Source: Corythucha ciliata (taxonomy: Eukaryota; Arthropoda; Insecta; Hemiptera; Tingidae). Taken from it: 64,000 nt of DNA. The DNA lies in the NCBI GenBank assembly GCA_038030265.1, contig CM075943.1, positions 32,488,001 to 32,552,000 of the forward strand, given 5' to 3'. Below, piece by piece: positions 9,721 through 56,577 of the stretch. Both the position numbers and the translations under genes were made by a program. Position 1 is the first letter of the stretch. Each line of letters begins with the position of its first letter. Under the pieces are notes generated by a model, which ran no database searches, was not told the DNA's origin, and worked only from the letters and a program-made list of their open reading frames with translations.

Positions 9721-9808
9721 ACGAGAAGTTTACGATTTTTCACATGTTGTTTTCTTTGTAAAAATATGAATCAATAAAAAAGTTAATGTTCAACCACCAA
9801 ACATAAAA
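9721..9808 (+). repeat. 5' terminal direct repeat of element C (LTR part)
   Basis: This 88-bp sequence starts ACGAGAAGTTTACG and ends CCACCAAACATAAAA; its copy at 13570-13657 looks near-identical. It is very short for a gypsy LTR. The 3' copy is preceded by a purine-rich AGAAGGGGAGATA and TGTACTTC, so the full LTR may start near 13554 and the 5' copy may have lost its first bases. Just after it, CTGACGACGAGGATGCC (9809-9825) could be a mutated tRNA primer-binding site. Confidence 0.7.
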
Positions 9809-9820
9809 CTGACGACGAGG

Positions 9821-10459
9821 ATGCCAACGACAAGGGCAAGACGTCAAGGCGAGCCTTCTTTTTCAGAGAGCGAAAGCCGACATTCGGGTGCACACCAGGC
9901 GATCAATTCTCGCATTGTAACTTGTGAATCCTTCGACCCGAACAATGGAGACTTTGAAGTATGGTTTATCAAATTCAATTCCGCACTAGCATTAAACGTT
10001 GAGCTAGAGGAAAACACAAATAGAAATCTTCTGGTAAACAGCCTAAGTATACCCGTTCTGAAGATTTTAGTAAATCTTTGTAAACCCAAAACCCTCGACG
10101 AATTCAGATATGACGAGTTATGCCAGCTTTTAATATCGTATTATAAACCTACCACTCTAAAAGTAGCGGAAAGAGTCAAATTTTTCTGTCTTAAGCAAAA
10201 TGGGGCAAGTCTAGTTAGTTTTGCAGACGAATTAAAAACTAAAGTAACTGACTGCGAATTTCCAGCTGATTTTTTTCAAGACGCCATCATTACAGCTTTT
10301 ATTATGGGTATTTCTGACGATAAAATTCGATTACAGTTACTGGACCGTGACTACACCGATTTCGCTTCCTTACTTTCCCAGGCTAAAACCCTTGAAACCA
10401 TATCTTTTACTAATCACCAAGACAGTACTATTTCACTCACAAATCCGACAAAGAAATAA
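9821..10459 (+). pseudogene. gag: gag capsid (element C)
   Basis: A 212-codon frame beginning with ATG 12 bp after the terminal repeat. Residues 30-190 match the gypsy capsid pattern: FEVWFIKFNSAL, then ...YYKPTTLKVAERVKFFCLKQNGASLVSFADELK and DAIITAFIMGISDDKIRLQLL. It is stopped by TAA (10457-10459) immediately before the nucleocapsid zinc knuckles, which continue in the same frame. The stop is therefore probably a nonsense mutation in a former gag-pol frame. Confidence 0.85.
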
Positions 10460-24840: not shown

Positions 24841-24859
24841 GGAGTGGGGAGTGAGAAAA

Positions 24860-25927: not shown

Positions 25928-25971
25928 AGGACTTCTTTGGCAGACTAAGAGACGAACAAACGACTTCTGAC

Positions 25972-25977
25972 TGACTA
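25972..25977 (+). promoter_or_regulatory. Candidate leaky stop TGA CTA between ORF1 and ORF2
   Basis: In the family frame ORF1 ends TCT GAC TGA and continues in the same frame as CTA GAA GGC into the endonuclease, without an ATG. TGA CTA is the best-known readthrough context in animals. The same bases are found in copy 2 at 53737-53742. In copy 1 the upstream frame is offset by a one-base deletion near 25900. Confidence 0.6.
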
Positions 25978-26228
25978 GAAGGCACTTCCGCATCGACAAG
26001 CATTTTGCACCAAAATGTGAGAGGACTTAAAGGAAAATACGACGAATTGAATGTCTTCTTTAATACAACAGTAACCCCCGTACGATGTTTTATGCTTCAC
26101 CGAGCATTTCCTAGAGGCCGGGGAGACAAAATTGTACTCATTTGATAACTATGTCATGGGGGATTGCTACTGCCGTGAAATGAGAAAAGGCGGTGGTGCC
26201 GTCATTTACCTTCGTTCTGGTCTTGGGG
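25975..26228 (+). pseudogene. CR1 ORF2 endonuclease, first part, copy 1
   Basis: Starts ...ILHQNVRGLKGKYDEL, the first strand of an APE-type endonuclease with its catalytic Asn. An extra base near 26078 shifts the frame compared with copy 2, just before the TEHF motif with the catalytic Glu. The coding sequence is interrupted at a TTAA site (TTGA here) by the inverted-arm element and continues at 31331. Confidence 0.8.
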
Positions 26229-26280
26229 TTGAGGCTAAAGTGGACGACAAGTGTGCGAGAGAGACAGAATACAGTCATAT

Positions 26281-26626
26281 TTGCGGCACCTCTCACGGCT
26301 TGAAAAATTGACCGATTTTAGTTTTTTCAACGGATTCTTACTAGTTGAAAGCATAGAAAATTCGGAAATTAGGTCTGTGATTTTTAAATTGAGTGTAAAT
26401 GTGAAATTTGGAATTTAAATTTTTTTGAAATATTTTTTTGGACAAAACTGCCTTATACCATGAAGCAGCAGAATATTCGGTAACCAAATAATTTTGAGTT
26501 TTTGATTTTCCTCCATAAACATCGCCCGAAAGAGAAAAGTACGACTTCAAAGAGAAAAGCCGCCTCAAGAGCCAAGAGTGAGAGAGAGAGCTCTTGCAGG
26601 CTGAAGCGGGAGAGATCACCCGCTCA
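26281..26626 (+). repeat. Left arm of the inverted-arm element
   Basis: Begins TTGCGGCACCTCTC and ends in the AAGCGGGAGAGATCACCC region. It is the reverse complement of 30925-31265 with scattered substitutions and small indels. Confidence 0.85.
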
Positions 26627-26927
26627 CACGATGCACCATTCTGTAGTGTCCCCCTGGGCGAATTATCTTCCAAAAAATGACCTTGAGTGAACTAGGGGTT
26701 TTTTTTTTAATAGTTGTTTTCTAATCCTTTTGACTTACTATACGCGGTGTAGGTAAAGAAATTCCGCGCATTGTGGCACGAGCCATCAGAACTAAATCAG
26801 TAGTATATTGAGGAAGGGCGTTTCATAACGAGGTTCAAAAGTTTTAGGAATTATTTTATTTTTTCGAAAAGTCCGCTCTCGCTCGCTATTTTTTATCGAT
26901 CTGAAAATCACGTTATGTCATTAAGAG

Positions 26928-27236
26928 GGCCACACACGGTCATCAAGCATGCTTGTCAAGCATGTTTGACGTTTGACGCCACACCCACACGGTCAAACTG
27001 GCCGACAAGCTTCAAATTCAAACGCGCACCCAAGCTTCAGCAGTTTCCCAATACCCTTTGTTCTCGATGGTTTGAAGGTTTGTTGGATTGAAACACACAC
27101 ACACGATCAAATCTGTTTGCCAAACCTCATGTTTGCGAGCAAATTTTCTGGCAGTGACTGAAAACCGCCAAATGTGATGTCAAACCTTCAAACACGATCA
27201 AACCTGCTTGTCAAGGACGTTTGATCGTGTGTGGCT
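26928..27236. mobile_element. MITE-6, ~309 bp
   Basis: Inverted ends: left GGCCACACACGGTCATCAAG then GCTTGTCAAGCATGTTTGA; right TCAAACCTGCTTGTC then CGTTTGATCGTGTGTGGC. Internal copies of GATCAAAC and GCTTGTCA are also present. It lies inside the middle of the inverted-arm element. The target duplication is unclear. Confidence 0.75.
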
Positions 27237-27799
27237 TTAGGCGAGTTACAAGGAAATTATCATATTTTGGTTTGTCATTCATTCTGAACGTAGTTGACTT
27301 TTTTAAGATACAGCCGTTGAAAATTCTGGTTTATTATTCATTATGAATAATACACCTATGTTTTCGGTCAGAACAAAATTTGTACAACCCACCCTCAAAC
27401 TTTTTCTGTGTACGTTTCAACATGTCTAGATTCGATTTCCGCAATGTCCGTCCGCCGTACTCCGTCCGGGCCATATCTTGCCCTAGGATTGCTCGAAAAA
27501 ACTCGTTCTTTCGCACATAAACTCCACTTGGGATCTAGTTGGTCCTAACAGCTGATCAGTTTGATCAACTAACTCCCTAGATATTTATGGGCCAAAAGCG
27601 GGTTCAAAATGGGGGTTTTCAAAGGTTTTGAAATAATAGGGGTTTGGGGTGTCGATTTTCATGTAATTTCAAGCCGGATTTGGCTACATTCATGAATAAT
27701 ATACCCATGTGTAAAATTTGCAGCGTTTTTATCCGTAATCATAACTCTACTATTCTTCAAGCTCTGTTCTCGAATGGGCATACAAAAATGTCTCACGAT
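27237..27799. other. Unassigned non-coding stretch
   Basis: A diffuse repeat of GAATAATA(C/T)ACC(T/C)ATGT at about 27345 and 27694 is the only structure noticed. No gene is seen. Confidence 0.4.
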
Positions 27800-28670
27800 C
27801 AGTGTTTGGTTTCACTCAGAACTCGTATCGATACTCGGTAGCTTTGGAATCGATACTTTTTTCGGTACCAAGTACTATTTAGATACTTTGATTCGATACA
27901 GGGAAATGAGTACTTCAGGAATCCATACTTATCATTCGATACTTTTTAATCAATATCGAGTATTTCTTATTTTTTAAATTAATTTAAACAAGTAAATTCC
28001 CGGCATCCGAAACGTACCGTTTGAAATGAGTACTTTAATTGGTATCGAATGGGTATTGATTCGGTATCATTTCAAATCGGAACTTTTACTTCTTATTGAA
28101 TGGGCATTGATTCAAATAAGCAGATATTCGGTATCGGGTGCATTCATTCGGAATCGTAAAAGTATCGGTTAAGTAAGAGAGTCGTAAGCTCGGTGCACAC
28201 TACGCATTTTTCGTAGCATGATTGCTATTTATTTGGAGGTCGAAAGGAAATATATGGTCCCCGGTAGTGACCGGATATTTTTTAAAACTGGTAGGCAATC
28301 CTATTTCAAAAGTTGCATAGTGTGCATCGAGCTTAAGTAGTCATTGTGTTTCGATTGAAATGAGTCTTTATTTGTATAAGGGAGTAGTGATTGACGACTC
28401 GAAAAATCATTAGAGATGGTAGTGCTTTTGTTCAGTGGTGGTGGAGGGGTTTTCTTACAAGCGAGTTGAATCGACACCTCTGTATCGATACTTTTGAATC
28501 AATACCAAGTACTTTTGGTACATATGTACTTGGAGTACCTGGATACTTTTTATACGATGCCATAAACAAGTTATATGAGTGTCGATACTTTTCTTCCGAT
28601 ACCTAGTACTATTCGATACTTCAAATGAGTAAAGTATCGATACTTTATTGGTACTGATCAACACTAGATA
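27800..28670. repeat. GTATCGATAC-rich segment with possible hAT-like ends
   Basis: More than a dozen copies of (G/A)TATCGATACTTT or its reverse complement, in both orientations. The left edge has CAGTGTTTGG and the right edge CAACACTAG, weakly resembling hAT termini. MITE-7 is nested in the middle. Confidence 0.5.
28185..28336. mobile_element. MITE-7, ~147 bp
   Basis: The ends AGCTCGGTGCACACTACGCA and TGCATAGTGTGCATCGAGCT form an inverted repeat of about 20-28 bp. TA(A) occurs at both flanks. It is inserted in the GTATCGATAC-rich segment. Confidence 0.75.
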
Positions 28671-30904
28671 GAGCACGGCCGACTCCCGCTTGTAAATAGG
28701 GGGGGCATCATTTTGCACACCTTTCGTGACTATGTTCTTCCGGTTGAGTAGGACTGTCGCTATCTCTCGAACTAAAATAATAGTCCAGGAAGAGGGCAGT
28801 CTGGGAGGAAAAAACTTCGGGACTAAGTTTGATGACTGATTTCAATGTTTTCAGGTGTGCTGAATCCGAATTTCAACTTTGCCCAACGATACAACCCTGG
28901 CAACATGCCGAAATTTGGTTGCCTTTTAAAATTAAGTGTTATTTTTGGTTTTTTCACCACGCCGTACTGAATCTGAATTTCAACGCCCCGACCTCCTAAA
29001 AGAGACGCTATAGTCTAAAATAGGAAAATCTACAAAAGTCCCCGATTTCTGTTATTTTTTCTATGTGACGCGCGATCAAAGCCGAAATTGAAATAGTTCA
29101 CATTAGTTTCCCACGTTTTCAGGTAATCTGAATCTGAAAATCAAATTTCCGGCCCCCCATGGTAAACGTCGTATCAAAAAATATTCTACGATACACAAAT
29201 AACCTCAAATTTCAGCACTTTTTAACGTGCTTTTCTTGTTTGCTATTTTTTAGTACAGTACAATTAGGTGAAAAATTGACTAAGCCCAGACACTCGAAAG
29301 AGCATGGCAATTTTTGGTGCAAATTGTTTGATACCTTTTCCCCAACACATCATAAAAAACTCCCAACGATTCTGCCTCGGGTTTGGGAATAGCTGTGTGT
29401 TTTTCTGGAATAATTCTGTAACTATTGGGGTTATCAAAAAATGTACTGTACCTAATTTGAAAAGCCCAAAATTTTACACAAGAAACTGTTAAGCGGGGTT
29501 TATACTTGTATAAAGTACTATAATAGGTACCTACATGCCATATTTCAATTGAAAAGAGAGGCATTCCCCCACAGGTCCAGGTTGTGAAACTATTTCCTTC
29601 CGAAAACAACAAGCGAGTAAATTGTGAGAATCCCAACCACTATTGAGGCATCTATTGGAACCGAATTTATTCATCATTTTTTGGCACAACCTCTTCTTTT
29701 TAGGTATAACTGCAATAACTTTCCTTCCAGCTGTCATTATGGTAATTTTGACGACAAATCCTGAAATAAGGCACTTTTTTCATTGTGGAACGGTCGCATC
29801 AAACAGCACAAATCATCCTTCTCAAAGAATAATCCTTCTCAAAAGAGGTTGAAAGTTACGTGAAATAGCATACTTTATATTTTCACTAAACTAACCATCG
29901 AAAATTTTGTCGAATAAGTTCTTGAAACGAAGGTGCTCAATTCTGCTATAGACGTTCTTCAGATGCATGCGTTTACAATCCCTCCCTACTATTATTTTTT
30001 AACGCATCCCGGATTTCGATGAAATCAGTTCGCCATAGAAAAAGTTAGGTATTCCTATACAATTTTGCATATTGTTCACTCGGCTTCCACTATGCTATGC
30101 GATCGAGGAAAACAGCTCATGAGAGCTTGATGAGGGGTTTTCTGTGGTCTTCAAAGTAAGCCTAATAGAATGATTAGTCAGCACTGATGGTTGTTTCAGC
30201 AAAACAAACAAAATGGTCCTGAAATGCAAACTCCAGCTCGTGCAGTGCCAACACCCTACGTGAAATCTTCGGAGATTTTTCGCACAGTGTGGGTCAGAAA
30301 GAGATTGCACCAAACATTTATCAGTTTTTCCAGCTTGCAAGCTTCGGTCAATTTTCCGTCAGCTTTTACTTTCCTGCTTCTGTTTCAACCAAAAGGCGAA
30401 GGGAAGGAAAAAAGTGGTGCGGAAGTTTCTTGTGCAAACTGTACTCTTCAAATTTGGTCTGGTAAATTTTCGCGTTAAAACAAATGGTTCACTCACTCTT
30501 TCAACTCACCCTTTCTCTACAGGTCACTGGTATTCAAATTACCATATTTGTTATCAATGCAGTTCACTAATTTTCAAGTCTGAAAATTGATCTGGTTAAT
30601 CGTCTGGACATGTTTTCACTGATTTTCGTATTAACACATCTTGTTGAACGCCTAATCTTAACTCGTTGGGAACGTGTTTTGGTAACATATTTTGAAACGT
30701 CATTTTTGTTTCTTTGGAAGCCCGATTTTGCATTCGCAACTGGTTCGTTGCCTAACCCACAAAAAATAAAATATGAATAGCTTGGTTTTGGAGCAATGGC
30801 TTATTACAAATGTCACAGTACCCACAAACATAATATTCACAATATAAAAGTTGGGTAGATAAAAGGTAGGAGGGTCTAAGTAACATTAAAAAAAAAAAAA
30901 AAAA
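28671..30904. other. Unassigned middle of the inverted-arm element
   Basis: About 2.2 kb without a recognised gene. A loose repeat CTGAAT(C)TGAATTTCAA followed by C-rich sequence occurs three times (about 28860, 28973, 29123). An A run (30889-30906) precedes the right arm. Confidence 0.45.
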
Positions 30905-30924
30905 AACGTAGCTCCCATTGAACC

Positions 30925-31265
30925 CGTGTTGAGCGTGAGTGGGTGATTCCTCCCGCTTCCCCCAGAGACTCTTGCTATTGAGGCGGCTTTTCTCTTTGAA
31001 GTCGTACTTTTCTCTTTCGGGCGATGTTTATGGAGGAAAATCAAAAACCCAAAATTATTTGGTTCCCGAATATTCTGCTGCTTCTTGGTATAAGGCAGTT
31101 TTGTCCAAAAAAATAGTTCAAAAAAATTTAAATTCCACATTTTACATTTACACTCAATTTAAAAATCACAGACCTAATTTCCGAATTTTCTATGCTTTTA
31201 ACAAGTAAGAATCCGTTGAAAAAACTAAAATCGGTCAATTTTTCAAGCCGAGAGAGGTGCCGCAA
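30925..31265 (-). repeat. Right arm of the inverted-arm element
   Basis: The reverse complement of the left arm. Shared words include CTCTTTCGGGCGATGTTTATGG and CAGTTTTGTCCAAAAAAAT. Confidence 0.85.
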
Positions 31266-31330
31266 TTTAGGGGCGAAAGTGGCGCGATCTGTTGACTCAG
31301 AGTCACACCAAACCACCGCGGACTTTAGCC

Positions 31331-31832
31331 TTAAGAAATGTAAATCACTCTCTTCGATGTCAGTTGAATCTTGCCTTGAAATAGCAGCCGTTTTGATAAA
31401 CGAAAAACTCTTGGTTGTTTGTATTTATAGGCCTCCATTCGGGGATTTAAAAACTTTTATCGCGTCTTTTGAACAGCTACTTACAAAAGTTTGTGGTTCC
31501 AAGGTACATGTTGTTATTTGTGGAGATTACAATCTTCACTTTCAGGGGGAATCCCGTGTTGTTGTTGACTTTGTTAATCTATGTAGGTCATTTAACTTTT
31601 ATTTTTGTATAAATCAACCTACTAGTGGTGGGGCGTGTCTGGACAATGTTTTAGTGAATTTTACCATTTTGGAGGCGAATGTATTTGATTGGGGATTCTC
31701 TGATCATGCTGGTCAAGTGGTATCTGTATCTTCCCCATCCTCTGGCGTGCTCCCCGTCACCTCTAAGTACGAGTTTTATGTTTATAACGTGGTGAATATG
31801 AATTACTTCAGGTGGAACTTGAACAAATTTGA
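31331..31832 (+). pseudogene. CR1 ORF2 endonuclease, second part, copy 1
   Basis: Continues the endonuclease after the insertion: VVCIYRPPFGD, VICGDYNLHF (catalytic Asp and Asn), LDNVLVN and FSDHAGQVV (catalytic SDH). The frame is open until the FLYWCH-bearing insertion at 31833. Confidence 0.85.
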
Positions 31833-31951
31833 GGGCGGGTGTAGAGTGGGCCCCGAGCTCGAGGGGCAGAGGGCAAGGAGATAAGAGAGTTGTGTAGGCT
31901 GGGCCCAGTCAGTCAAGACTCGAGAGCACAACATGGCACAAGCCAAACGTT

Positions 31952-32043
31952 ATGTTCGGGCAGCGAGGCCACGTTCTGCTGGAGATTGACGGCTTCAAAT
32001 ATAAGAAACACCGAGAATTGGTTACAGGAGAAACGAGGTGGCG
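31952..32043 (+). pseudogene. FLYWCH domain, first exon
   Basis: Read from ATG 31952 (perhaps not the true start): MFGQRGHVLLEIDGFKYKKH then RELVTGETRWR. This matches the FLYWCH pattern: rGk-x-L-x3-Gy-x-y/f-x-k, then the W-R/x-C segment. The exon ends with CG, followed by donor GTAAGT at 32044. FLYWCH domains bind DNA or protein and occur in mod(mdg4)-type proteins and in some transposon-associated genes. Confidence 0.7.
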
Positions 32044-32146
32044 GTAAGTTTATGTCGTTATTATTTCTATTGTTCAAGTATATGTCGTTCATGCATTATC
32101 ATTGAAGGAAGAAAATGAAAATGATGAAGGATGTTTATTGTTGTAG
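32044..32146 (+). other. Probable 103-bp intron, GTAAGT to AG
   Basis: A consensus donor GTAAGT and an acceptor TTTATTGTTGTAG bound 103 bp. Joining CG from the left exon with T from the right restores an Arg codon and brings the Cys of the WRC motif directly after it, so the phase is consistent with the domain. Confidence 0.7.
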
Positions 32147-32235
32147 TTGCTGTAAAAACTTGTGCGTTGCGTCAATCAAAACAAGCGGAGCCAACCACGT
32201 CATCACAGACACCAATTTCACTCACAATCACGAAC
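32147..32235 (+). pseudogene. FLYWCH domain, second exon
   Basis: After the acceptor the frame reads CCKNLCVASIKTSGANHVI then TDTNFTHNHE. This has the second Cys of the finger (CKNLC) and the terminal H-x-H pair (HNHE) of FLYWCH. CR1 sequence resumes at 32236. The FLYWCH frame differs from the ORF2 frame, so no fusion protein is made. Confidence 0.7.
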
Positions 32236-34280
32236 TGGATCGAGGTGTTGAAGGTTCATGATCCCAACGTGGCCTTTGAATGCTTTATTAGTACCCTTAT
32301 GTATTTTAGGGACGCATATATCCCGAAGATTAAAGGCTGTAATCGCCATGTCAAGAATAAACCCTTAAGGTGGTTGTCACCTGAGATTAGATCACTTAAA
32401 GTTGAGGTCATGAACCTGTATCAGACATATAGGAGGAGCAATCGTCCCGAGGACAAGGATGCGTACAAGTGCGCTCTATTCGAGTATAAAAAAGTAATAA
32501 TTAACGCTCGGAAACAGTCAAATGATGAGTTCATCATGGGGTCTGATAACATTGTTAGAGCGACCTGGAAGGTAGTTAGTACCGAATGTTCAAGGGCATC
32601 AGCCCCCAGGCTTGATGATAAGAGTATAACAGCACCAGCATTTTGCGATTTCATGGTGAAAATTGTTGAAACTGTGTCAGACAAAATAGAGAGTTGTGTC
32701 GAACAAAAGCAAATAGATTATAATAAATTTGAAATGAATGGTAATAGGGGAACCAATCTGATGACCTGCTTTAGACCTATTAGTGAAAACGAATGCCTAC
32801 GCATTGTTAACAATTTACCGTCCTCGAAAACTACGGACATTCACAAGTTTTCGACTGTATTCCTCAAGTCTGTGATTCACGAAATTGTAAAGCCTCTGAC
32901 CTCTCTGATAAATACCTGTTTACGGTAAGGAGTGTTTCCCCCAGCTTTGAAAATAGCAAAATTTGTACCAATCTATAAAGGTAAAGGTGAACGAGGTGAC
33001 TGCAGTAACTGGCGTCCTATATCGATCTGCTCAGTCTTCTCCAAAGTCTTGGAGAGGGCCATGTACACACAGATGTATGATTTCCTCATGGAAAATGACC
33101 TGCTGTATACGGGTCAGTACGGATTTCGAAAAGGAAGAAGTACTGCCCAAGCGGTTCTATCCTTCGTTGAAAATGTCTACCGATCCTTTGAGGAAAAGTC
33201 GTATGTTGCGGCTGCTTTTTGTGACCTATCACGGGCTTTTGATAGTATCAGTCACGCTAAACTGATCAGCAAACTGAAGAAATATGGGTTTCAAGACAAA
33301 GCTCTAAATCTTCTTTCAAACTTTTTGGCAAACAGGGAACAGCGTGTATTTTTTAGAAATCAATGGTCTGATGGCACAAGAGTTAAAAGTGGCGTTCCCC
33401 AAGGATCGGTCATCGGGCCTCTCCTCTTCCTAATAATGATTAACGACCTTCCCTCCTTCACCGGAGCTAAGGTCACCTTGTTCGCTGATGATACGACCAT
33501 AAGCCTAAATGGCCCTGAAATGGACACTCTGGTGTTGAATTTATCCCGGGAGCTCGGTGAGGTCGAGGGCTGGCTACTATACAATGACCTTTTACTAAAT
33601 GAAGCAAAAACCAATTACTTGGTGTTTGGGCTGAGGCAATTACCTGACACGAACTGTGAACCTGTGAAGTTCTTGGGCCTGTGGTTGGACTCAAAGTTGG
33701 ATTGGGGGGTTCACATTGATGAATTATGCAGACGACTAAGTAGAGTTTTGTTCGTTATTAGAAAACTTAAAGAGGTAATTTCTAACGAATGTTTATTGAA
33801 GGTGTACTTTGGATTGTTCCAGTCATTAATCTCGTATGGGGTTATTTTATGGGGCAATTCCAGTTCTGCTAAGCGACCCTTTTTAATGCAAAAAAAAGGC
33901 TGTGAGGATAATGAGTGGAGTCGGACCAACTGAACATTGCACTTCTTTGTTTAGAGCTCTAGGTATTATGACGTTACCATCGTTGTATGTCTTAGAAAAC
34001 TTATGCCACGCCCATGGTTTGGCCCCCCAAACGGAGTTAGTAGGACAGAAAACTGATCGGGTATTGCGTAGCGAGCAAGACGTAGTGTTACCATTGTATA
34101 GATTAAGTAAAACCGCTTCTAGTCATATGTACCTGTCCTTTAAAATGTACAACTCACTGCCCTTAAATATCAGAAACCTAAGTTAAAATAAGTTCCGTAG
34201 CGCAATAAAATCTAAATTGATCAATGAGGCAATATACAGTGTAGAGGACTTTGTGTCGATAAGCTTTAGTAGTGATAGAT
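32236..34280 (+). pseudogene. CR1 ORF2 linker and reverse transcriptase, copy 1
   Basis: Linker (KPLRWLSPEIRSLK...) followed by RT: VPIYKGKGERGDCSNWRPIS, GFRKGRSTAQA, FCDLSRAFDSISH, GVPQGSVIGPLLF and LFADDTTISLNG (catalytic FADD intact). There is a nonsense change at 32926-32928 (GAA in copy 2, TAA here), an extra A in the A-run near 33890 (8 versus 7) that shifts frame, and another nonsense change near 34183 close to the C-terminus. No RNase H follows. Confidence 0.9.
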
Positions 34281-34348
34281 AGCTTTTTAGTGAAAATGTT
34301 CGACTGAAATTGTGACGTACCCATGTCTTTGAGACCTCCGGGAAAAAT

Positions 34349-34370
34349 AAATTATTATTATTATTATTAT
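34349..34370 (+). repeat. CR1 3' tail AAATT(ATT)n, left half
   Basis: AAATTATTATT... is the 3' end of the CR1 element. The same sequence resumes at 40469 after the I-like LINE, so these form a duplication of at least 22 bp around that insertion. Confidence 0.85.
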
Positions 34371-34643
34371 TTTTTTTTTTTTGGGAGCAGGGAGGTGGAA
34401 ATGCCTTTACGCACAGAGTGCCGGACTCCTGCCGAATGGCAGACTACCGGCTAAAACCACCCCCCCTTTTTCGGGCATCGACTGCTGAGGTCATTAGCCC
34501 TCCTACTTTGTTTTTCTAAGAGATTGCAAAGATTGAGGCTGGTTACTAAAATGACTGGTTATTAAAATGACTGGGGTATTATGTGGCTATTGTTTTGAGA
34601 GTAATTAATTATTGTGATCTAGCAGGATTTGTTGTTGTTTTTT

Positions 34644-35921: not shown

Positions 35922-37507
35922 GATTTACGGGCGGAACCATATACGACGCTAGCGAAGTCTATTTTAGAACGGATAAGGGCTTCAAAGATTTTGAGGATCA
36001 TTGCGGTACTACTCGCTGCGCGATGTCCCGCAATGGTTTGTATGACTCTCATGTCTGAATGGCATCTATTGTATAAGTCTTGGAGATGATGTTTCCAAGT
36101 GAGATTTTCGTCAAAGATTAGGCCAAGAAATTTGTGATGTGGTACATATGATATTGGCGAGTTGTTGATGTAAAGTTGCGGTGGAGTGTGAGGGCGGCGT
36201 AAGTGACAGAAGTGTATTGCAACAGTTTTTTCTGCTGAAAAGGTGAGGCCACGGCTGGCAGCATTTTGTGTTAAGGTGTTGATGGCTTCTTGAAAACTGC
36301 AGAGATCTTCACTAGTGGGGTCTGCAGGATAGGATTTGTATAGCGCTATGTCGTCAGCATAAAAAGAAATTTGGAAGTCACGAGGAATGTTATTCGTTAG
36401 ATCATTAACGGCCGCCTAGAATAGTGGTATGCTCAGAACGGAGCCCTGAGGCACACCGTTATCCTGCGGGTAGGTCTGGGAGAGGGAGGAACCGACACGA
36501 ACTCGAAGAGAGCGTTGCTCCAGAAAGTCTTGAAGAACCAAAGGTAGTCGGCCCCGAAGGCCCCATTTGTAGATTTGGTTTAGCGCTCCGTATCTCCAAA
36601 CGCGATCAAACGCTTGTGTGATATCGAAAAAAATCGCGTTGGTGTGATTTCGATTAATAAAGGAATTTTGAATTGTGTTCTCCAGGTTGACTAGGTTATC
36701 CAAGACTGAGTGGTTGGAGCGAAAGCCTGTTTGGAAAGAGTACAGAAGGTTATGTTTTTGAATATAGTAGTTTAGTCGGAAAAAAATTAGGGTTTCATAA
36801 ATTTTGGCCATACAGGATGTTAAGGATATTGGCCTATAACTAGAGACTTGCTGGGGGTTTTTCCCAGGTTTTGGGACAGGAATTATCAAAGAACACTTCC
36901 AAACAGAAGGGTAGACTCCTTGGGACCAAAGTTGGTTATAGAGGTTTAGTAAGAGACCTCTATTTGTAGCGGATAGATTTTTAAAAAATTCATTGGGAAG
37001 GTCGTCTAGGCCAGGAGATTTGTGATTTTTGAGTTTCTGCAAAACACGGTTAAGTTCATCGATAATAAAAGGTTCATTGTAATCAAGGGTGTTATTTGTC
37101 GAAAAATTCAGAGACGAGTTATTTTCTATTTCACGTTTGAGGGTCTGAAAGTGAGACGAATAGTTGGTGGTAGCACATTGTTCAGAGTAATGTTTGGAGA
37201 AGCACTCCGCGATCTTTCCCGGGTCAACTACTTTGCTACCATCACTTGTACAGATGAATGGGGGTACGGTGTTAATGGGTTTACCTTTAAGACATCTTAT
37301 CCTAGTCCAGACCTCGCGCGCAGAGACGGAGGTAGAAATTTGGGAAAGGTACTCGTTCCAAGATCGCTTTTTGGCGTCTTGTTTGGCACGACGTTCTTGG
37401 GCTCGTAACTTTTTGAACGCTATCAAATGCTCCAGGGAGTAAGTTCTTTTTAGTCGGTTGAGTGCAGATTTTTTTTGTTTATTGATTGCATGAATTTCAC
37501 GATTCCA
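35922..37507 (-). pseudogene. I-like ORF2, reverse transcriptase part
   Basis: In frame after the TAG: WNREIHAIN..., then KSPGLDDLPNEFFK, SSYRPISLTSCMAKIYE, FQTGFRSNHSVLD, IFFDITQAFDRVW and GVPQGSVLS. An in-frame TAG at 36416-36418 is followed in the same frame by DLTNNIPRDFQISFYADDIALY (catalytic YADD). The thumb region continues to GAFRTSP near 35850, where a frameshift leads to the next part. Confidence 0.88.
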
Positions 37508-38410
37508 CTAGGGCACCGAGGGCCGGTTAGGAGGATGTCGTGATTTTTTTATACAGCTAAGAGCAGCTTCGTGGAGAGCGTTAGTGCATGCAATTACATC
37601 TTGGCAGGAGTTATTAGTTAGTGGGGGAAAATTTATGAAGGAGTTGAATACGCCCCAGTCGACATTTGATAGCTTCCATTTCGGTGGCGACTGAGAGATA
37701 TTGTAAGAGGAACGGAGTTGAATTAATATGGGAAAGTGATCCGAGTGTCGTAGGTCTTCAGTAACCTGCCATGAAAAGAAGGTTACCAAAGAAGGGGAGG
37801 TGAGGCTAACGTCTATGGAACTGAAATTTCCCGAGCTGGCTATGAAGTGAGTAGGAGTGCCATCGTTCAATGGGACAAGGGGTATCCCCTCAATAATCGA
37901 ATGGAAATCGTTTCCTCGAGGAGACGTGTGTCGAGAACCCCAGGCTGGGTGGTGGACGTTGATATCGGCAAGTAGAAGTATGGGTCTGGGCAAGGAACGA
38001 AGTAGGTTCGCAACCTCCTCGTTCGCCCAATTAGTATCTGGGAGGTAAAGAGAGCAGAGAGTGATTTTGAAAGGAAAGTTAATTGTGGCGGCTACTGCTT
38101 GAAGATTAGTTTGCAAAATTATAGGTTTGGAGGCGAAAAAACTTTTTATGTAGAGTGCCACTCCTCCATGACGCCGTCGAGCGCCAGGATTACGTGGTTC
38201 TTTGCGAAATAAAGTGTAGTTTGGGATTGTATACGGTTGATTTTGGGCAAAATGTGTTTCTTGGATGGCTATAGACAGGGGGTCGTTTGATTTTACAAGG
38301 TCCCGGAGTTCATCAACATGAGCAAAAAGCCCTCGAATGTTCCATTGTATGATATTATGGTTTGCCGAACAGTCGATTGTATTATGAGGGGATTGTGGGT
38401 TTATATTCAT
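37508..38410 (-). pseudogene. I-like ORF2, endonuclease part
   Basis: Starts at ATG 38410. The APE-type endonuclease shows IIQWNIRGL, IQETHF (catalytic Glu), LLADINVHHPAWGS (Asp, Asn), SSIDVSL and LRHSDHFPI (SDH). The frame ends at TAG 37508-37510, where a Trp is expected (VPWWN in relatives), and continues in the same frame, so a single nonsense change breaks ORF2 here. Confidence 0.88.
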
Positions 38411-38437
38411 AATTCTTTGTGTGTTGTGTCGGAGTGC

Positions 38438-39889
38438 TTACGTGGCTTGCCCTTTGGCCAGCCTTTTTTCTTTTTTTTTTTTGCTTTGGGTATCTTTATC
38501 CGTCCAGTAGGTTTTGTCGGAGTCGCCGCTTAGTTCGCCGGACTCGGGGTCGTACTCCATTGAGGAGCACGGATCATGAGTCCCACGGAGACCCGTAGTT
38601 GTTGTTGAGGGGGAGGGTTGAGTGCGAAGGGGTTTAGTTGCAGGATTGAGACTGCTGGTAGTCTTTCGGAAAGGTGATTGACGGGGGGTGTCAGATTGTT
38701 GTGGGGGTGGCATTGGAGTGGGGAGGGATGTTTGGGGTCTTGGGGTTAGGGATTTTAATTTTGAGGAGTATGTGATGTCTGGTCTGACGGTGGATGGATT
38801 GGAAGCCATTGCGCGAGCTTCTCGCCATGAAACCTTTTGGGTCACCTGTAGGCGACGTACTTCTTTTTCTTTTAGGAATACGGGGCATTGACGGTTAGTA
38901 GATTTATGTGATCCTCCGCAGTTCACGCAGGAGGGGGAAGCGGAGCATTCGTTTTCATGTGGGTCTGCGCCGCAGGTGCATTTGGCTGCAGTTCGGCAGC
39001 GGGCTGCGGTGTGGCCAAATCGTTGGCAGTGAGAACAACGCATCGGGTGGGGTATGTACGGGCGGACCTTAAGCTTGTAAAAGGCTCCATTTATGGACGA
39101 GGGGAGTTCAGCGAGGTAAAAAGTGAGTACGAAGAGACCTGTACTTTCTCGTTCATCTCTGCCCGGGACTCGGCGGGTAATGCGGCGGATTTTAATAACT
39201 TTTTCTTCAGCTAAGCCGTTAAGGATAGTTTCGTCCGTGGAATTAATAAAATCTCGACAGAATATTACTCCTTCCACTGTGTTGAGGCGGATATTGGGGC
39301 TGGCTTTTACTGGGATCTCACCTAAGGTAGTGAGGTTTTCGACCTTTTTTGCTTGATGAGGATCATTTACTTGAATACTTAGCCGGCCATTGTACATTTT
39401 CGAAACAGATTTCAGATTTCCAAGTGCTGCGCGTAGGTTTTTGTGAAGGGCAAAAGGGCATGTGTTGGTAAAGTTGACATCACCTGTGGGTTCTACTACC
39501 CAAAATCTCGAAAATGATTCGGCTGAGTTTGGTAAGACTGGTGGTTGCCATTGAGTGCGCGTGGGGCGCTGGTAATTTGAGGAAGACGATTTTACTGTAG
39601 GTGGGTCGATTTCGAGGTCCATGAGATTGGCAGGTTGGGCAGTAGATGAGTTAGTTTCAGTAGCGCGTTTCCCGGGGGGTAGGTTTTCTGCTGTTTCTCT
39701 ACTTAGAGGTCGTTTATTTAACGGAGTGGTCGCTGCTGGAGCCTTGTCCAAAGCAGGAAGTTGGGGTGCGTTGACGGGGTTGTTTGTTTGGTCTGTGGAA
39801 GTTGGTGTCGGTTTCGCTTGCGGGTCGGGAGTACCCGCGGGGGGAGAAGTTTTGGGACCTGATCCAAGTTTTTTTGTGCTTGAATTCAT
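38438..39889 (-). CDS. I-like ORF1, nucleic-acid-binding protein
   Basis: An intact 483-codon frame starting at ATG 39889. The N-terminal ~140 residues are rich in Pro, Ser and Thr and low in complexity. Next is a folded region (about 150-280), then three CCHC knuckles at about residues 285-340: CSHCQRFGHTAARC, CTCGADPHENEC and CVNCGGSHKSTNRQC. A basic Lys-rich C-terminus ends the protein. Such ORF1 proteins coat element RNA. The stop is 27 bp before the ORF2 ATG. Confidence 0.88.
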   Translation of the reverse strand: MNSSTKKLGSGPKTSPPAGTPDPQAKPTPTSTDQTNNPVNAPQLPALDKAPAATTPLNKRPLSRETAENLPPGKRATETNSSTAQPANLMDLEIDPPTVKSSSSNYQRPTRTQWQPPVLPNSAESFSRFWVVEPTGDVNFTNTCPFALHKNLRAALGNLKSVSKMYNGRLSIQVNDPHQAKKVENLTTLGEIPVKASPNIRLNTVEGVIFCRDFINSTDETILNGLAEEKVIKIRRITRRVPGRDERESTGLFVLTFYLAELPSSINGAFYKLKVRPYIPHPMRCSHCQRFGHTAARCRTAAKCTCGADPHENECSASPSCVNCGGSHKSTNRQCPVFLKEKEVRRLQVTQKVSWREARAMASNPSTVRPDITYSSKLKSLTPRPQTSLPTPMPPPQQSDTPRQSPFRKTTSSLNPATKPLRTQPSPSTTTTGLRGTHDPCSSMEYDPESGELSGDSDKTYWTDKDTQSKKKKEKRLAKGQAT

Positions 39890-40468
39890 GTTTATTGAGG
39901 TTTGTTAAGAGAGAGGAAAGAAAGGAAGAGCAGACGCAACGCAGCCCAAGAGGCGCCGGGACGTACCCAAGCGCGAGCCAACCCCCGAAGGGAGTCCCCA
40001 AGCGCATCCGTGGCCTCGACGCAGCCCCCCCCCCCCCAACGTGCAGCAGGGTCCCGTCCGGTCGCCATCCGGCACTACTACACGCCGGGGGATTATTCGC
40101 TGGTGGTTCAGGGCAGCCTCCCCCAAGGCTAATAGGAGGTTCGGGCCCCACCCACCGACTCCCACACCCACCCTAAGACATGACTAGGTCAGGGTGCGGG
40201 GGCATTGTAGCGGCACCGGGAGAAGGTCCCATCAACTCCCAGACATACGCTGTACCCTCGAACACGCCGAAGACGCCCCCCACGCAGCAACACAGCACAA
40301 GGAGCCCCACCGCCCCCGAAGATGCGCCACGCCGCCTAGGAAAGGATAAGGTTAGAGGGAAGGGTTCGAGCTAGACCTGAGGAATTTGGGTTAGTCTGAG
40401 GCCAGCTAGCCACCCCGGGCTTGCCACACCCGTAGCATCTCGGACAGAGATGCCCCCTGGGGGCCTAT
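39890..40468 (-). promoter_or_regulatory. 5' UTR of the I-like LINE
   Basis: The minus strand starts TATAGGCCCCCAGGGGGCAT. The segment is rich in G and C and contains no ATG-led ORF1 part. Plus-strand open frames here (39784-40176, 39902-40132) are chance frames in GC-rich DNA. LINE 5' UTRs usually hold an internal promoter; none was identified by motif. Confidence 0.6.
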
Positions 40469-47091: not shown

Positions 47092-47705
47092 GCTCAAGCG
47101 TCGTGAATTCGAAGCTAGTTTGGGGATGTCTTGAAGCCCTCAGGCCTGTGGCAACGGCAAACAGCCTTACTTTGATGTGGGTGCCGGGTCACAAGGGGTT
47201 TGAGGGGAATGAAATGGCTGATCAACTCGCGAAGAGAGGATCAGAGATGCCTTACGTGGGCCCGGAGCCAAGTCTCGGGGTCACGAAGTCCTTCACGAAG
47301 AGGCAGGTGCAGGCGTGGTTGGACGAGAGGCATCGTGAACACTGGGTTAGACAACCAGGTCTCAGGCACGCCAAGCTCTTTGTCACTCCAAAGGGACGAT
47401 CGGAGAAGGGCCTGATCTCTCTGAGCCGAGGAGACCTTAGAATCTTGGTGGGACTGCTAACGGGACATTGTGCCCTTCGATATACACTCAGACTAATGGA
47501 GAAGTCTGACACGGACATTTGCAGATTTTGCGACCTGGCCGTGGAAACAGCAGAGCACGTACTGTGTGAGTGCCAGGCTCTGGGGCGGTTACGCTTTCAA
47601 CATCTTGGAAATGATGTGCTTCAACCGGAGGACATCTCCAGGATGGCTACGGGAAATATCCTCAACTTCGTTAAGGAGTGGTGGTGGAGGACGCTTGAAA
47701 ACTAG
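47092..47705 (+). pseudogene. LINE ORF2: RNase H end and zinc finger
   Basis: Completes RNase H (MWVPGHKGFEGNEMADQLAKRG, last Asp) and has the C-terminal finger CRFCDLAVETAEHVLCEC. The stop is at 47703-47705. Seven bases later the gap begins. Confidence 0.9.
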
Positions 47706-47712
47706 CGTCTTT

Positions 47713-48212
47713 NNNNNNNNNNNNNNNNNNNNNNNNNNNNNNNNNNNNNNNNNNNNNNNNNNNNNNNNNNNNNNNNNNNNNNNNNNNNNNNNNNNNNNNN
47801 NNNNNNNNNNNNNNNNNNNNNNNNNNNNNNNNNNNNNNNNNNNNNNNNNNNNNNNNNNNNNNNNNNNNNNNNNNNNNNNNNNNNNNNNNNNNNNNNNNNN
47901 NNNNNNNNNNNNNNNNNNNNNNNNNNNNNNNNNNNNNNNNNNNNNNNNNNNNNNNNNNNNNNNNNNNNNNNNNNNNNNNNNNNNNNNNNNNNNNNNNNNN
48001 NNNNNNNNNNNNNNNNNNNNNNNNNNNNNNNNNNNNNNNNNNNNNNNNNNNNNNNNNNNNNNNNNNNNNNNNNNNNNNNNNNNNNNNNNNNNNNNNNNNN
48101 NNNNNNNNNNNNNNNNNNNNNNNNNNNNNNNNNNNNNNNNNNNNNNNNNNNNNNNNNNNNNNNNNNNNNNNNNNNNNNNNNNNNNNNNNNNNNNNNNNNN
48201 NNNNNNNNNNNN
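47713..48212. other. Assembly gap of exactly 500 N
   Basis: A run of 500 unknown bases. The round number suggests a placeholder of unknown true size. It separates a LINE 3' end from a gypsy integrase, so further element sequence is missing. Confidence 0.98.
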
Positions 48213-48920
48213 TGCTGGTCCTATGATGAATGGTTTGTACCTGCTTATGCTTCATCTCTTATGCTTGTACCTGCCTGGACGCCTTCAGCAAATGGATGGA
48301 GGTAGAGGTCACACGCTCCTCAACAACAGAGTCGACATCCGCGATCCTGGAAAAGTTGTTTTCTTCATACGGATCCCCTACTACTATCGTCACTGACAAT
48401 GGGCCTCAGTTTACATCCAGCGACTTCACGCGTTTTCTTAAGCTGCAAGGTGTCAAATACCACAAGCGTACCGCACCATACCATCCCGCAACTAATGGTC
48501 AGGCGGAGAGAGCGGCACAAACCGTAAAGAAAGCACTACGAGCGGCGCAAGCGTCGACTTCAACTATCCAGCAGTGCCTCAATCGTTTCCTGTTCCAGTA
48601 CAGAAAGACTCCACACGCCACTACTGGGCTGGCACCCGCTGTCCTTTTTCTAAATCGAGCGATCCGAGGACGCCTAGATTTGGCTCTCCCGGATTTCCAA
48701 CAAAGAGAAATGAAAAGTCCACAATTTTCGCCACTTCCAATTAGGAGACGTCGTTTTATTTCGAGGCTACGGGACTACTAAGTCTTCCCCTAAATGGCTT
48801 CAGGGTCGAGTCGCTGCCGTGCTCGGCGATCTCCACTATGAAATTGAGTGTCAGGACGTCCGGTACAAACGACATGTAGACCAAATGCGTCGAGGGCCAC
48901 GAACTTGCGTTTTGAATTAG
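48213..48920 (+). pseudogene. int: Gypsy integrase C-terminal half, element E
   Basis: Starts at the gap with AGPMMNGLYLLML. A small insertion follows (the word TTGTACCTGC is repeated about 30 bp apart), then DAFSKWMEVEVT (first Asp), VTDNGPQFTSS (second Asp) and TNGQAERAAQTVKKAL (Glu). A frameshift near 48720 moves to the frame that ends RYKRHVDQMRRGP...stop at 48918. A G run at 48955-48962 may be the polypurine tract. The upstream part is lost in the gap. Confidence 0.85.
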
Positions 48921-52443: not shown

Positions 52444-52632
52444 ATCGTTTCAACCATGGAGGAAGGAAAAGAGAGGAGGGAGCATAAGTTGAAAAGGGTG
52501 ATGCCGATTTTCGCCATATTGGTGGTCCCTCGGCCTTAATATTCAATATATAGATAACAGAGGAGCAGTCGTGATAAAGTAGTCCTCAGCATAAATCCTG
52601 ATGCGTTCTGGGACTACCAAGGTGTGAGAAAA

Positions 52633-53739
52633 ATGGCGCTGACCAGGAGCAACAAGTCTGACTGTGGTCACTGTTTGAGTCGATTTTCGGACTGCAGTGA
52701 ATCGGTTTTTTGCGAAGGTCCGTGTAAAAAATGGTTCCACTTATCGTGTGTTAAACTTACAGACAAAGATTACGGCATGATCCGTGAGCTGCAAAATAAA
52801 ACTAAGTGGTTTTGTGAACGCACGCCACGTGGACTTACAAAAACTGGTGAACCTTAATCACGATACTACTGATTTATTTTCTGTGATCTCTGTGACTGTC
52901 GCGGAGCTAGAAAAGGTGAGTGCCAATAATGTAGAATTGGAAAAGCGGATCGCTGGGCTATCTCAGGAAAATTGCGAAACTCGAGTTTTGTTAAAAACTT
53001 TGACAGAGAAGATGGCGGCACTCTCAAAAGACCAGGATTCTTCCTACGTTACCGACACCCAAGATCTAGGAGGAAAGGTGGGTGTGAAAACATATTTTGA
53101 CTGCGCCTCTCGAGAGACGAGCGATAATTCATTATCGAATAGTGGTGACAGGATGGATAGCCTATCGGACGAGGGGGAGGGTGGTGAAGGTGTGGCTTCA
53201 TCTTTGCCCCGATCTCGGACGCCTCTCGCCCCTCTTCCCGAGGTAAGAGAGAAGATAGGTGATGTCCAAACAGAAGATAATATGGGCCCCGTGAAGGATA
53301 GAAGGCAGCGCCGTCGTAGATTTGCAGCGGTGGGGGTAGACATTGGGACTTCGGTTCCTCACCTGAGGGCACAAGTCTCGGTCGCTCACGACGCTCCACT
53401 TCGATCTCAGACCCACGACCGGCCTTTCAAAGGAATGATTGGAGCTGGGAAAGCTACCATAGGTAACCTCAAGGCTGCACCTGAGAAGAATCGGGTAAAA
53501 AAACTGTTTGTCTCACGCTTAGACCCCGAGACAAAATCTGACGACATCCTCGAGCACTTGAAAACCCTTGGGATTAAGGATCCAAAATGAGTACAAAATT
53601 TACTTCGTACTCCTCTTTTTATATTGAGGTACCAGAAACTGAGGCTACGACTGCATGCGATCCGGTTAACTGGCCGGCCCGTTGCTACTTAAAGGACTTC
53701 GTTGGCAGACTAAGAGACGAACAAACGACTTCTGACTGA
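52633..53739 (+). pseudogene. CR1 ORF1, copy 2
   Basis: The PHD finger begins as in copy 1, with the WFCER Cys intact. One extra base near 52818 shifts the frame, so the finger and coiled coil lie in different frames (52633-52857, then 52784-53590). A 10-bp deletion between two CCAAAATG words stops the frame at 53588. After it, the frame of the ORF1 end is open to the family stop TGA at 53737-53739 (…RLRDEQTTSD). Confidence 0.85.
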
Positions 53740-53742
53740 CTA
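53737..53742 (+). promoter_or_regulatory. Candidate leaky stop TGA CTA, copy 2
   Basis: TGA at 53737-53739 is followed by CTA GAA GGC in the same frame as the endonuclease (LEGTSASTSILHQNVRGL). There is no ATG between this stop and the endonuclease; the next in-frame ATG lies about 50 codons into that domain, after its first catalytic motifs. Confidence 0.65.
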
Positions 53743-54978
53743 GAAGGCACTTCCGCATCGACAAGCATTTTGCACCAAAATGTGAGAGGACTTAAAGGAA
53801 AATACGACGAATTGAATGTCTTCTTTAATACAACAGTAACTCCGTACGATGTTTTATGCTTCACCGAGCATTTCCTAGAGGCCGGGGAGACAGAATTGTA
53901 CTCATTTGATAACTATGTCATGGGGGATTGCTACTGCCGTGAAATGAGAAAAGGCGGTGGTGCCGTCATTTACCTTCGTTCTGGTCTTGGGGTTAAGAAA
54001 TGTGAATCACTCTCTTCGATGTCAGTTGAATCTTGCCTTGAAATAGCAGCCGTTTTAATAAACGAAAAACTCTTGGTTGTTTGTATTTATAGGCCTCCAT
54101 TCGGGGATTTAAAAACTTTTATCGCGTCTTTTGAACAGCTGCTTACAAAAGTTTGTGGTTCCAAGGTACATGTTGTTATTTGTGGAGATTACAATCTTCA
54201 CTTTGAGGGGGAATCCCGTGTTGTTGTTGACTTTGTTAATCTATGTAGGTCATTTAACTTTTGTTTTTGTATAAATCAACCTACTAGGGGTGGGGCGTGT
54301 CTGGACAATGTTTTAGTGAATTTTACCGTTTTGGAGGACAATGTATTTGATTGGGGATTCTCTGATCATGCTGGTCAAGTGGTATCTGTATCTTCCCCAT
54401 CCTCTGGCGTGCCCCCCGTCACCCCTAAGTCCGAGTTTTATGTTTATAACGTGGCGAATATGAATTACTTCAGGTGGAACTTGAACAAATTTGATTGGAT
54501 CGAGGTGTTGAAGGTTCATGATCCCAACGTGGACTTTGAATGCTTTATTAGTACCCTTATGTATTTTAGGGACGCATATATCCCGAAGATTAAAGGCTGT
54601 AATCGCCATGTCAAGAATAAACCCTTAAGGTGGTTGTCACCTGAGATTAGATCACTTAAAGTTGAGGTCATGAACCTGTATGAGACATATAGGAGGAGCA
54701 ATCGCCCTGAGGACAAGGATGCGTACAAGTGCGCTCTATTCGAGTATAAAAAAGTAATAATTAATGCTCGGAAACAGTCAAATGATGAGTTCATCATGGG
54801 GTCTGATAACATTGTTAGAGCGACCTGGAAGGTAGTTAGTACCGAATGTTCAAAGGCATCAGCCCCCAGGCTTGATAATAAGAGTATAACAGCACCAGAA
54901 TTTTGTGATTTCATGGTGAAATTTGTTGAAACTGTGTCAGACAAAATAGAGAGTTGTGTCGAACAAAAGCAAATTTGA
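53740..54978 (+). pseudogene. CR1 ORF2: endonuclease and linker, copy 2
   Basis: Open frame in phase with the ORF1 end. The endonuclease is complete: HQNVRGL (Asn), CFTEHFLEAG (Glu), VVICGDYNLHF (Asp, Asn), LDNVLVN and FSDHAGQVV (SDH). The frame runs through the linker (KPLRWLSPEIRSLK) and ends at TGA 54976-54978, created by a 14-bp deletion. All endonuclease motifs are intact in this copy. Confidence 0.88.
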
Positions 54979-56487
54979 AATGAATGGTAATAGGGGAACT
55001 AATCTGATGACCTGCTTTAGACCTATTAGTGAAAACGAATGCCTACGCATTGTTAACAATTTACCGTCCTCGAAAACTACGGACATTCACGAGTTTTCGA
55101 CTGTATTCCTCAAGTCTGTGATTCACGAAATTGTAAAGCCTCTGACCTCTCTGATAAATACCTGTTTACGGGAAGGAGTGTTTCCCCCAGCTTTGAAAAT
55201 AGCAAAAGTTGTACCAATCTATAAAGGTAAAGGTGAACGAGGTGACTGCAGTAACTGGCGTCCTATATCGATCTGCTCAGTCTTCTCCAAAGTCTTGGAG
55301 AGGGCCATGTACACACAGATGTATGATTTCCTCATGGAAAATGACCTGCTGTATACGGGTCAGTACGGATTCCGAAAAGGAAGAAGTACTGCCCAAGCGG
55401 TTCTATCCTTCGTTGAAAATGTCTACCGATCCTTTGAGGAAAAGTCGTATGTTGCGGCTGCTTTTTGTGACCTATCTCGGGCTTTTGATAGTATCAGTCA
55501 CGCTCAAAGCTCTAGATCTTCTTTCAAACTTTTTGGCAAACAGGGAACAGCGTGTATTTTTTAGAAATCAATGGTCTGATGGCATAAGAGTTAAAAGTGG
55601 CGTTCCCCAAGGATCGGTCATCGGGCCTCTCCTCTTCCTAATAATGATTAACGACCTTCCCTCCTTCACCGGAGCTAAGGTCACCTTTCGCTGATGATAC
55701 GACCATAAGCCTAAATGGCCCTGAAATGGACACTCTGGTGTTGAATTTATCCCGGGAGCTCGGTGAGGTCGAGGGCTGGCTACTATGCAATGACCTTTTA
55801 CTAAATGAAGCAAAAACCAATTACTTGGTGTTTGGGCTGAGGCAATTACCTGACACGAACTGTGAACCTGTGAAGTTCTTGGGCCTGTGGTTGGACTCAA
55901 AGTTGGATTGGGGGGTTCACATTGATGAATTATGTAGACGACTAAGTAGAGTTTTGTTCGTTATTAGAAAACTTAAAGAGGTAATTTCTAAGGAATGTTT
56001 ATTGAAGGTGTACTTTGGGTTGTTCCAGTCATTGATCTCGTATGGGGTTATTTTATGGGGCAATTCCAGTTCTGCTAAGCGACCCTTTTTAATGCAAAAA
56101 AAGGCTGTGAGGATAATGAGTGGAGTCGGACCAACTGAACATTGCACTTCTTTGTTTAGAGCTCTAGGTATTATGACGTTACCATCGTTGTATGTCTTAG
56201 AAAACTTATGCCACGCCCATGGTTTGGCCCCCCAAACGGAGTTAGTAGGGCAGAAAACTGATCGGGTATTGCGTAACGAGCAAGACGTAGTGTTACCATT
56301 GTATAGATTAAGTAAAACCGCTTCTAGTCATATGTACCTGTCCTTTAAAATGTACAACTCACTGCCCTTAAATATCAGAAACCTAAGTTATAATAAGTTC
56401 CGTAGCGCAATAAAATCTAAATTGATCAATGAGGCAATATACAGTGTAGAGGACTTTGTTTCGATAAGCTTTAGTAGTGATAGATAG
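54979..56487 (+). pseudogene. CR1 ORF2: reverse transcriptase, copy 2
   Basis: Three frames joined by a 38-bp deletion (near 55506) and a 2-bp deletion (near 55687): VVPIYKGKGERGDC and CDLSRAFDSIS; then GVPQGSVIGPLLF; then the thumb (KFLGLWLDSKLDWG) to the C-terminus ...SISFSSDR, stop at 56485-56487. The 2-bp deletion falls right at the FADD box, so the catalytic motif is out of frame. Copy 1 keeps this box intact. Confidence 0.88.
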
Positions 56488-56547
56488 CTTTTTAGTGAAA
56501 ATGTTCGACTGAAATTGTGACGTACCCATGTCTTTGAGACCTCCGGG

Positions 56548-56555
56548 AAAAATAA

Positions 56556-56577
<22 letters not shown>
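56548..56577 (+). repeat. CR1 copy 2 3' tail, AAATAAATT(ATT)n
   Basis: About nine TTA/ATT units end the element, comparable to the tail of copy 1. Confidence 0.85.

Follow-up and report, generated by a model that had tools for sequence, protein, structure and literature searches.

How is the second open reading frame (ORF2) of a LINE translated when it lies in one frame with ORF1, is divided from it by a stop codon, and has no start codon of its own? Apart from some examples, L1 and SART1 among them, translation of the second ORF of LINEs is poorly understood, and the question is raised here by an element, referred to below as family A, that is found in two copies in a 64,000-nt stretch of the Corythucha ciliata genome (C7:32488001-32552000; hereafter, the window). 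A preliminary description of the window proposed that ribosomes read through the TGA CTA found between the two ORFs and make ORF2 as an extension of ORF1. The comparisons described below support this proposal, and ORF2 is most likely produced by readthrough of a leaky UGA-CUAG, in the manner of Gag-Pol.

Both window copies lie on the forward strand. Copy 2 (positions 52621 to 56576) is decayed and aligns with copy 1 in four pieces of 97 to 99% identity in a blastn self-comparison. Its ORF1 opens with the ATG at 52633 and a PHD finger (52633 to 52854; Pfam ID PF00628, E value of 1.4e-6, above the gathering score), continues in a different frame (52823 to 53587), and ends with a C-terminal stretch (53587 to 53736, ...NWPARCYLKDFVGRLRDEQTTSD), the initial 38 to 46 residues of which are 57 to 63% identical to those of seven copies of a second family, family B. 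In the frame of this stretch, ...GRLRDEQTTSD (ORF1 ending in ...DFVGRLRDEQTTSD) is followed by TGA at 53737 to 53739, the candidate readthrough codon, and by LEGTSASTSILHQNVRGL, which leads into the APE-type endonuclease (EN). The letters thus confirm that TGA is followed by CTA GAA GGC, of which CTAG (53740 to 53743) constitutes the 3' readthrough context, and that the frame enters EN without a Met: the EN Asn codon is at 53779 to 53781, and the first in-frame ATG (53920 to 53922) corresponds to ORF2 residue 61, within EN. The first open stretch of ORF2 (53740 to 54975) covers EN, with PF03372 above and PF14529 below the gathering score. It is followed by two parts of the reverse transcriptase (RT) in different frames (54971 to 55561, with PF00078 above the gathering score, and 55503 to 55691, with PF00078 below it) and by a C-terminal part (55693 to 56484) that matches residues 671 to 934 of the family B ORF2.

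Copy 1 consists of a 5' part with ORF1 and the start of EN (24848 to 26230; 97.8% identity to copy 2) and, by blastn self-comparison, an EN continuation past inserted sequence (31331 to 31832) and the rest of ORF2 with the 3' tail (32236 to 34371, in the pieces 32236 to 33261 and 33297 to 34371); it is interrupted at 26231 to 31330, 31833 to 32235, and 33262 to 33296. It carries TGACTAG at 25972 to 25978 and, as the preliminary description had it, the same bases as copy 2, TGACTAGAA, at 25972 to 25980. The frame of its ORF1 is lost ahead of a stop at 25925. In copy 2, the ORF1 frame changes near 52823 to 52854 and 53587, and ORF2 stays open no further than 54975. Because both copies are decayed, the shared frame of ORF1 and ORF2 had to be tested in other copies. 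Elsewhere in the window, about 47700 to 48220 reads N.

Judged by its predicted domains, the family A element is a LINE of CR1/L2-type organization, with a PHD finger in ORF1 and an APE-type EN followed by RT (PF03372 and PF00078, both above the gathering score in pieces of a window copy). In the family B copy L016, the PHD finger scores below the gathering score. In the RT tree, which contains no reference CR1/L2 elements, families A and B are placed in the midst of metagenomic relatives. The CR1/L2 LINEs with a PHD finger in ORF1 described by Metcalfe and Casane in 2014 (type III and single-ORF; PMC4120745) likewise combine a PHD ORF1 with an ORF2 that encodes APE EN and RT. In contrast, two ORFs in one frame are split here by UGA-CUAG, whereas the portion of that paper available to us describes no readthrough, and "stop codon" does not occur in its main text.

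A search of the 401-Mb genome at the DNA level yielded at least 14 matches, which include both window copies (one of them split into two matches), L015 as a third copy of family A, and at least ten places of family B, with 65 to 72% identity. Eleven regions were taken, and eight of them hold the junction (L021, L024, and L025 do not); the end of ORF1 and EN are in one frame in six of the eight, L019 and L023 carrying indels. In L015, which is 5' truncated, 344 open codons, the last 160 of which match the family A ORF1, are followed by TGA and 933 open codons. The fully open family B copy L016 has an ORF1 of 387 codons, TGA CTA G, and an ORF2 of 936 codons, the TGA at the junction being the only stop in 1,323 codons. 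The shared frame noted in the preliminary description is therefore real in L015 and L016, and the window copies are broken elsewhere. All 10 copies read, the eight fetched ones and the two in the window (3 of family A and 7 of family B), have TGACTAG, and none carries a sense codon at the TGA.

This uniformity makes it very unlikely that the stop arose by an inactivating mutation or by drift and that active copies carry a single fused ORF. Single-ORF relatives do seem to exist: a locus of the same genome (C7:12831719-12834499), 35% identical to the family B ORF2, has an open frame of 1,271 codons and is perhaps a single-ORF fusion; the proteins P0140 and P0144 combine PHD, EN, and RT according to precomputed Pfam assignments; and subgroups with an N-terminal PHD have been described as "apparently a single ORF" in the part of the literature seen (PMC4120745). 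However, the ten copies with TGACTAG belong to two synonymously saturated families and include copies with a full open ORF2. The possibility that these elements make no ORF2 of their own and borrow it from other LINEs appears more remote still. A full-length open ORF2 is missing in seven of the nine copies scanned, with breaks in ORF1, ORF2, or both, as would be expected from such borrowing, but ORF2 is open in L015 and L016 and is under strong purifying selection, with a pN of 0.23 against a pS of 0.83 between these two copies (64% amino acid identity in ORF2).

Beyond families A and B, a further family in this genome (C1:4886027-4888120; 48 to 50% identity), known from the match alone, gives an in-frame match from ORF1 to ORF2 with a TGA in between when a fusion query with TGA as W is used; the match reaches 87 residues back into ORF1 and gains about 49 bits. 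Among the matches listed, each of the eight junction-spanning places of families A, B, and this third one has at least one TGA. Family C (45% identity) was initially taken as additional support and then withdrawn: an in-frame TGA is present, but only about 4 bits are gained upstream, the open-frame lengths are 960 versus 974, and the frame seems to close about 13 codons upstream of the TGA. One family C copy has TAG and TAA in place of TGA.

Between families A and B, synonymous sites are saturated; of the 80 Leu positions that the two share, just 19 use the same codon. The linker sequences flanking the stop are dissimilar, whereas TGACTAG is identical, so that the CTA has been kept where random drift, the contrary outcome considered in the preliminary description, would have erased it. 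ORF2 has its first Met at residue 61 in family A and at residue 92 in family B, past the EN residues N14 and E43 (family A) and N18 and E47 (family B). Across 23 aligned sequences, selected because their N terminus is complete, N18 does not vary and E47 hardly does. By analogy with L1 EN, this Asn and Glu are taken to be catalytic. An ORF2 protein started at the first AUG would lack these residues. An ATG-led ORF2 in an alternative frame is not apparent either: in L015 and L016, all three frames are devoid of ATG between a point 60 nt upstream of the stop and the codon for the EN Asn; hence, a SART1-type AUG at the stop was not encountered.

The best of the rival explanations is that ORF2 is translated as a free protein, by termination-reinitiation or internal non-AUG initiation in the linker. 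Reinitiation is known in LINEs from the UAAUG of SART1 and has been proposed for mammalian L1, according to the parts of a review that we could draw on (PMC5972666), and near-cognate codons do exist in the linkers (ATT and TTG in family A and ACG, GTG, and AAG in family B). However, no near-cognate codon is common to the two families, and a free ORF2 protein made in this way leaves the shared frame and the conservation of TGA CTA unexplained. We consider this explanation unlikely, and readthrough of the UGA the favored one, also in view of a distant group of LINEs.

This group came to light when contigs of prokaryote genomes were scanned (the best 80 of 97 loci were kept), which revealed LINEs on apparently eukaryotic contaminant contigs. 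It comprises five families on contigs titled "Plut" within Poribacteria MAGs and is far from families A and B in the RT tree. Each family has an open ORF1 stretch of 362 to 491 codons and one in-frame TGA, with EN immediately after it; ORF2 has 957 to 972 codons (except in L054, where it is cut at 720 codons by the contig end), with the first Met at residues 67 to 341. The junction is TGA CTA CAT in L046 and L052, TGA CTA TAC in L053, TGA CTA GTG in L054, and TGA CTC CAG in L051. The CTA thus recurs in four of the five families, which show 39 to 56% amino acid identity among themselves and a pS of 0.78 to 0.85, and the seven bases UGACUAG are identical in families A and B and L054; the CUC of L051 counts against a conserved CUA. 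In all five families the EN Asn is only 7 to 12 residues past the stop, and in L051 the frame between the two contains neither an AUG nor a near-cognate codon; both observations argue against non-AUG initiation. A Pfam scan of three of the five ORF1s (L046, L051, and L053) gave weak PHD matches below the cutoff in L051 and L053 and none in L046.

As a control, the codon after TGA at the seven junctions was compared with that after the off-frame TGAs within the corresponding ORF2s: CTA follows the junction TGA in 6 of 7 cases but only 9 of the 373 others (Fisher test, 9e-9). When only two lineages are counted, P is 8e-4, and since rows within a lineage are related, these P values overstate the enrichment. 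L052 also ends its ORF2 with TGA CTA, where readthrough is not needed, so the hexamer can arise by chance.

Under the favored explanation, ORF1 and ORF2 would constitute a single frame that a leaky UGA-CUAG interrupts. The majority of ribosomes would terminate at the UGA and release ORF1p, a minority would decode it by a near-cognate tRNA and produce an ORF1-EN-RT fusion, and the ratio of ORF1p to the fusion would be fixed in cis, as it is for Gag and Gag-Pol. Readthrough would account at once for the shared frame, the absent start codon, the preserved UGA-CUA, and the strong selection on ORF2; from these features we infer its occurrence, and with it a certain efficiency, an inserted amino acid, and a fusion that would be a working enzyme. 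That UGA-CUA and UGA-CUAG are strong readthrough contexts is documented in the sections of two papers available to us (PMC4132726 and PMC3542737). Readthrough in HEK-293T cells is about 1.5% with UGA-CUA alone, and 12 nt on the 3' side suffice, with no distal structure required, whereas four natural UGA-CUAG genes reach 7 to 31% and MDH1 reaches 3.5% (PMC4132726, as far as seen). Most viral class II cases (UGA-CUA/CGG) possess a 3' structure, according to the part of PMC3542737 that was available. No stable 3' RNA structure was found in windows that start at the stop or directly behind it in copy 2, L016, and L018 (z scores of -0.3 to 0.6 against mononucleotide shuffles); a fold window from -60 to +100 gave z scores of -2.2 in L016 and L018 and 0.5 in copy 2.

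An open frame would also result if the UGA were removed by splicing, edited from A to I to give UGG, decoded as selenocysteine, or read in a changed code, and editing would, in addition, preserve the UGA. This set of explanations we regard as highly improbable. None of the four requires CTA after the stop. No Rfam family, and hence no SECIS family, was detected at an E value of ≤1 in L015, L016, L051, and L053; L016 has only one TGA in 1,323 codons; and splicing would presumably be copied into new insertions.

The systems to which the proposed readthrough can be compared are known to us from partial access to the sources. Viral class II signals likewise place UGA-CUA downstream of an abundant N-terminal protein and ahead of a replication enzyme (PMC3542737), but here the host of the signal is a LINE and a 3' stem-loop near the stop was not found. 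The vertebrate genes OPRL1, OPRK1, MAPK10, and AQP4 have the same UGACUAG as families A and B and L054 and need no distal structure; there, readthrough adds C-terminal extensions, whereas here it would add a whole enzyme of 930 codons (PMC4132726). Gammaretroviral Gag-Pol is similar in its single frame, leaky stop, and low-abundance RT fusion but relies on UAG and a pseudoknot instead of UGA-CUA (PMC5009743 and PMC3542737). SART1 and L1, with reinitiation, and LINEs with 2A-like peptides also obtain ORF2 from one mRNA (PMC5972666), but families A and B have neither an AUG near the stop nor NPGP.

Within LINEs, premature stops in the human L1 ORF2 still allow low Alu mobilization, which has been ascribed to readthrough that yields active ORF2 (PMC4176336, in the part seen); readthrough is accidental there, whereas here a conserved stop in a leaky context stands at the ORF1/ORF2 junction. 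Against readthrough, we counted the LTR element Tca2, where an in-frame stop suggested it and a reporter detected none (PMC7175516, in the part available). Programmed readthrough at the ORF1/ORF2 junction of a LINE is unreported in the literature searched, which was in part accessible only as excerpts; an earlier remark in Repbase or by Kapitonov and Jurka in 2003 is possible. The available portions of reviews on recoding and reinitiation either have LINE ORF2 translated by other routes or do not discuss it (PMC5009743, PMC8310308, and PMC5972666). If true, a conserved leaky stop would offer a rule for the ORF1p:ORF2p ratio that is simple and open to testing, the enzyme would be an ORF1 fusion acting on its own RNA, and LINE expression would be tied to the host termination machinery. 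An in-frame, Met-less junction with UGA-CUA or UAG-CARYYA would then be a signature suitable for genome surveys.

Junctions of the latter kind and of a third kind were found in other LINEs. A soil contig (L049:1644-1652) has TAG CAA CTA, a perfect match to UAG-CAR-YYA of the tobamovirus-type class I, and in-frame TAG G with no Met before the EN Asn is found at L039:292-300, L041:416-424, and L059:1459-1467; the grouping of viral readthrough contexts in classes I to III, with TAG G in class III, follows the part of PMC3542737 consulted. In L049, the first strand of EN has a His at the position of the Asn in its relatives. CCHC knuckles are visible by eye in the ORF1s of L039, L041, and L049, and no Pfam match was obtained for the ORF1s of L049 and L059. 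The folds of the TAG junctions were single ones with no control, and no stimulator is claimed there. These contexts make it possible that stop readthrough is a recurrent, Gag-Pol-like route to ORF2 in LINEs that employs all three viral classes, namely, UGA-CUA in families A and B and the "Plut" group, UAG-CAA-CUA in L049, and UAG-G in L039, L041, and L059, a generalization that seems plausible to us but falls somewhat short of probable.

Altogether, the 11 in-frame, Met-less junctions have TGA in seven cases, TAG in four, and TAA in none, whereas TAA is found at 5 of 10 ORF2 ends of the same elements (P of 0.012, with kinship ignored). This count leaves out L044/L045 (TGA CAA ACC), which were excluded as Met-less candidates on account of two in-frame ATGs just ahead of the EN Asn. 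A survey with an EN profile, which was built from alignment A2 and nine of these loci and is biased towards them, showed 34 rows; 4 are from the same genome (two of them internal, with no junction) and 4 begin at a contig end, and the remaining 26 were counted. In these 26 contaminant LINE rows there is a stop upstream of EN, and an ORF1 of at least 97 codons abuts in frame in 9 of them. No Met precedes the Asn position in eight of these nine (the exception is L044), in contrast to the 17 others, all of which have a Met before EN. L059 comes from a separate search and is not among the survey rows.

Among more distant relatives, an AUG-led ORF2 is frequent: of the best 120 of 3,409 metagenomic or genomic protein relatives (about 30 to 36% identity), 83 hold the Asn and 80 of these start with M. 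Another 34 (P0009, P0011, and 32 more) begin after the EN Asn, and 3 are ambiguous; some of the 34 predicted proteins may represent further Met-less ORF2s. Viral contigs scanned for relatives contained no usable junction.

A different solution, the 2A-like NPGP motif, is found upstream of EN and in the EN frame in 9 of the 14 other LINE contigs tested (L030, L032, L033, L035, L037, L040, L043, L048, and L058) and is absent from both ORF stretches in L015 and L016. GDVExNPGP is present at residue 107 of the ORF1 stretch in L046 and L059, 385 and 256 residues, respectively, before the in-frame stop, so one element may combine a 2A peptide with an in-frame stop. The window itself contains another LINE on the reverse strand (36419 to 39904), with EN and RT identified by Pfam and an ORF1 in which CCHC is seen by eye and no Pfam match was obtained. 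Its ORF1 and ORF2 are also in one frame, with TAA GCA between them and an ATG nine codons on; judging from this arrangement, its ORF2 is an ordinary AUG-led one, in contrast to that of family A. An LTR-type element on the forward strand (9770 to 11554) shows a gag-like frame that stops at TAA ACT, after which CCHC (seen by eye), protease, and RT follow with no change of frame; the TAA may be either a decayed stop or a gag/pol junction.
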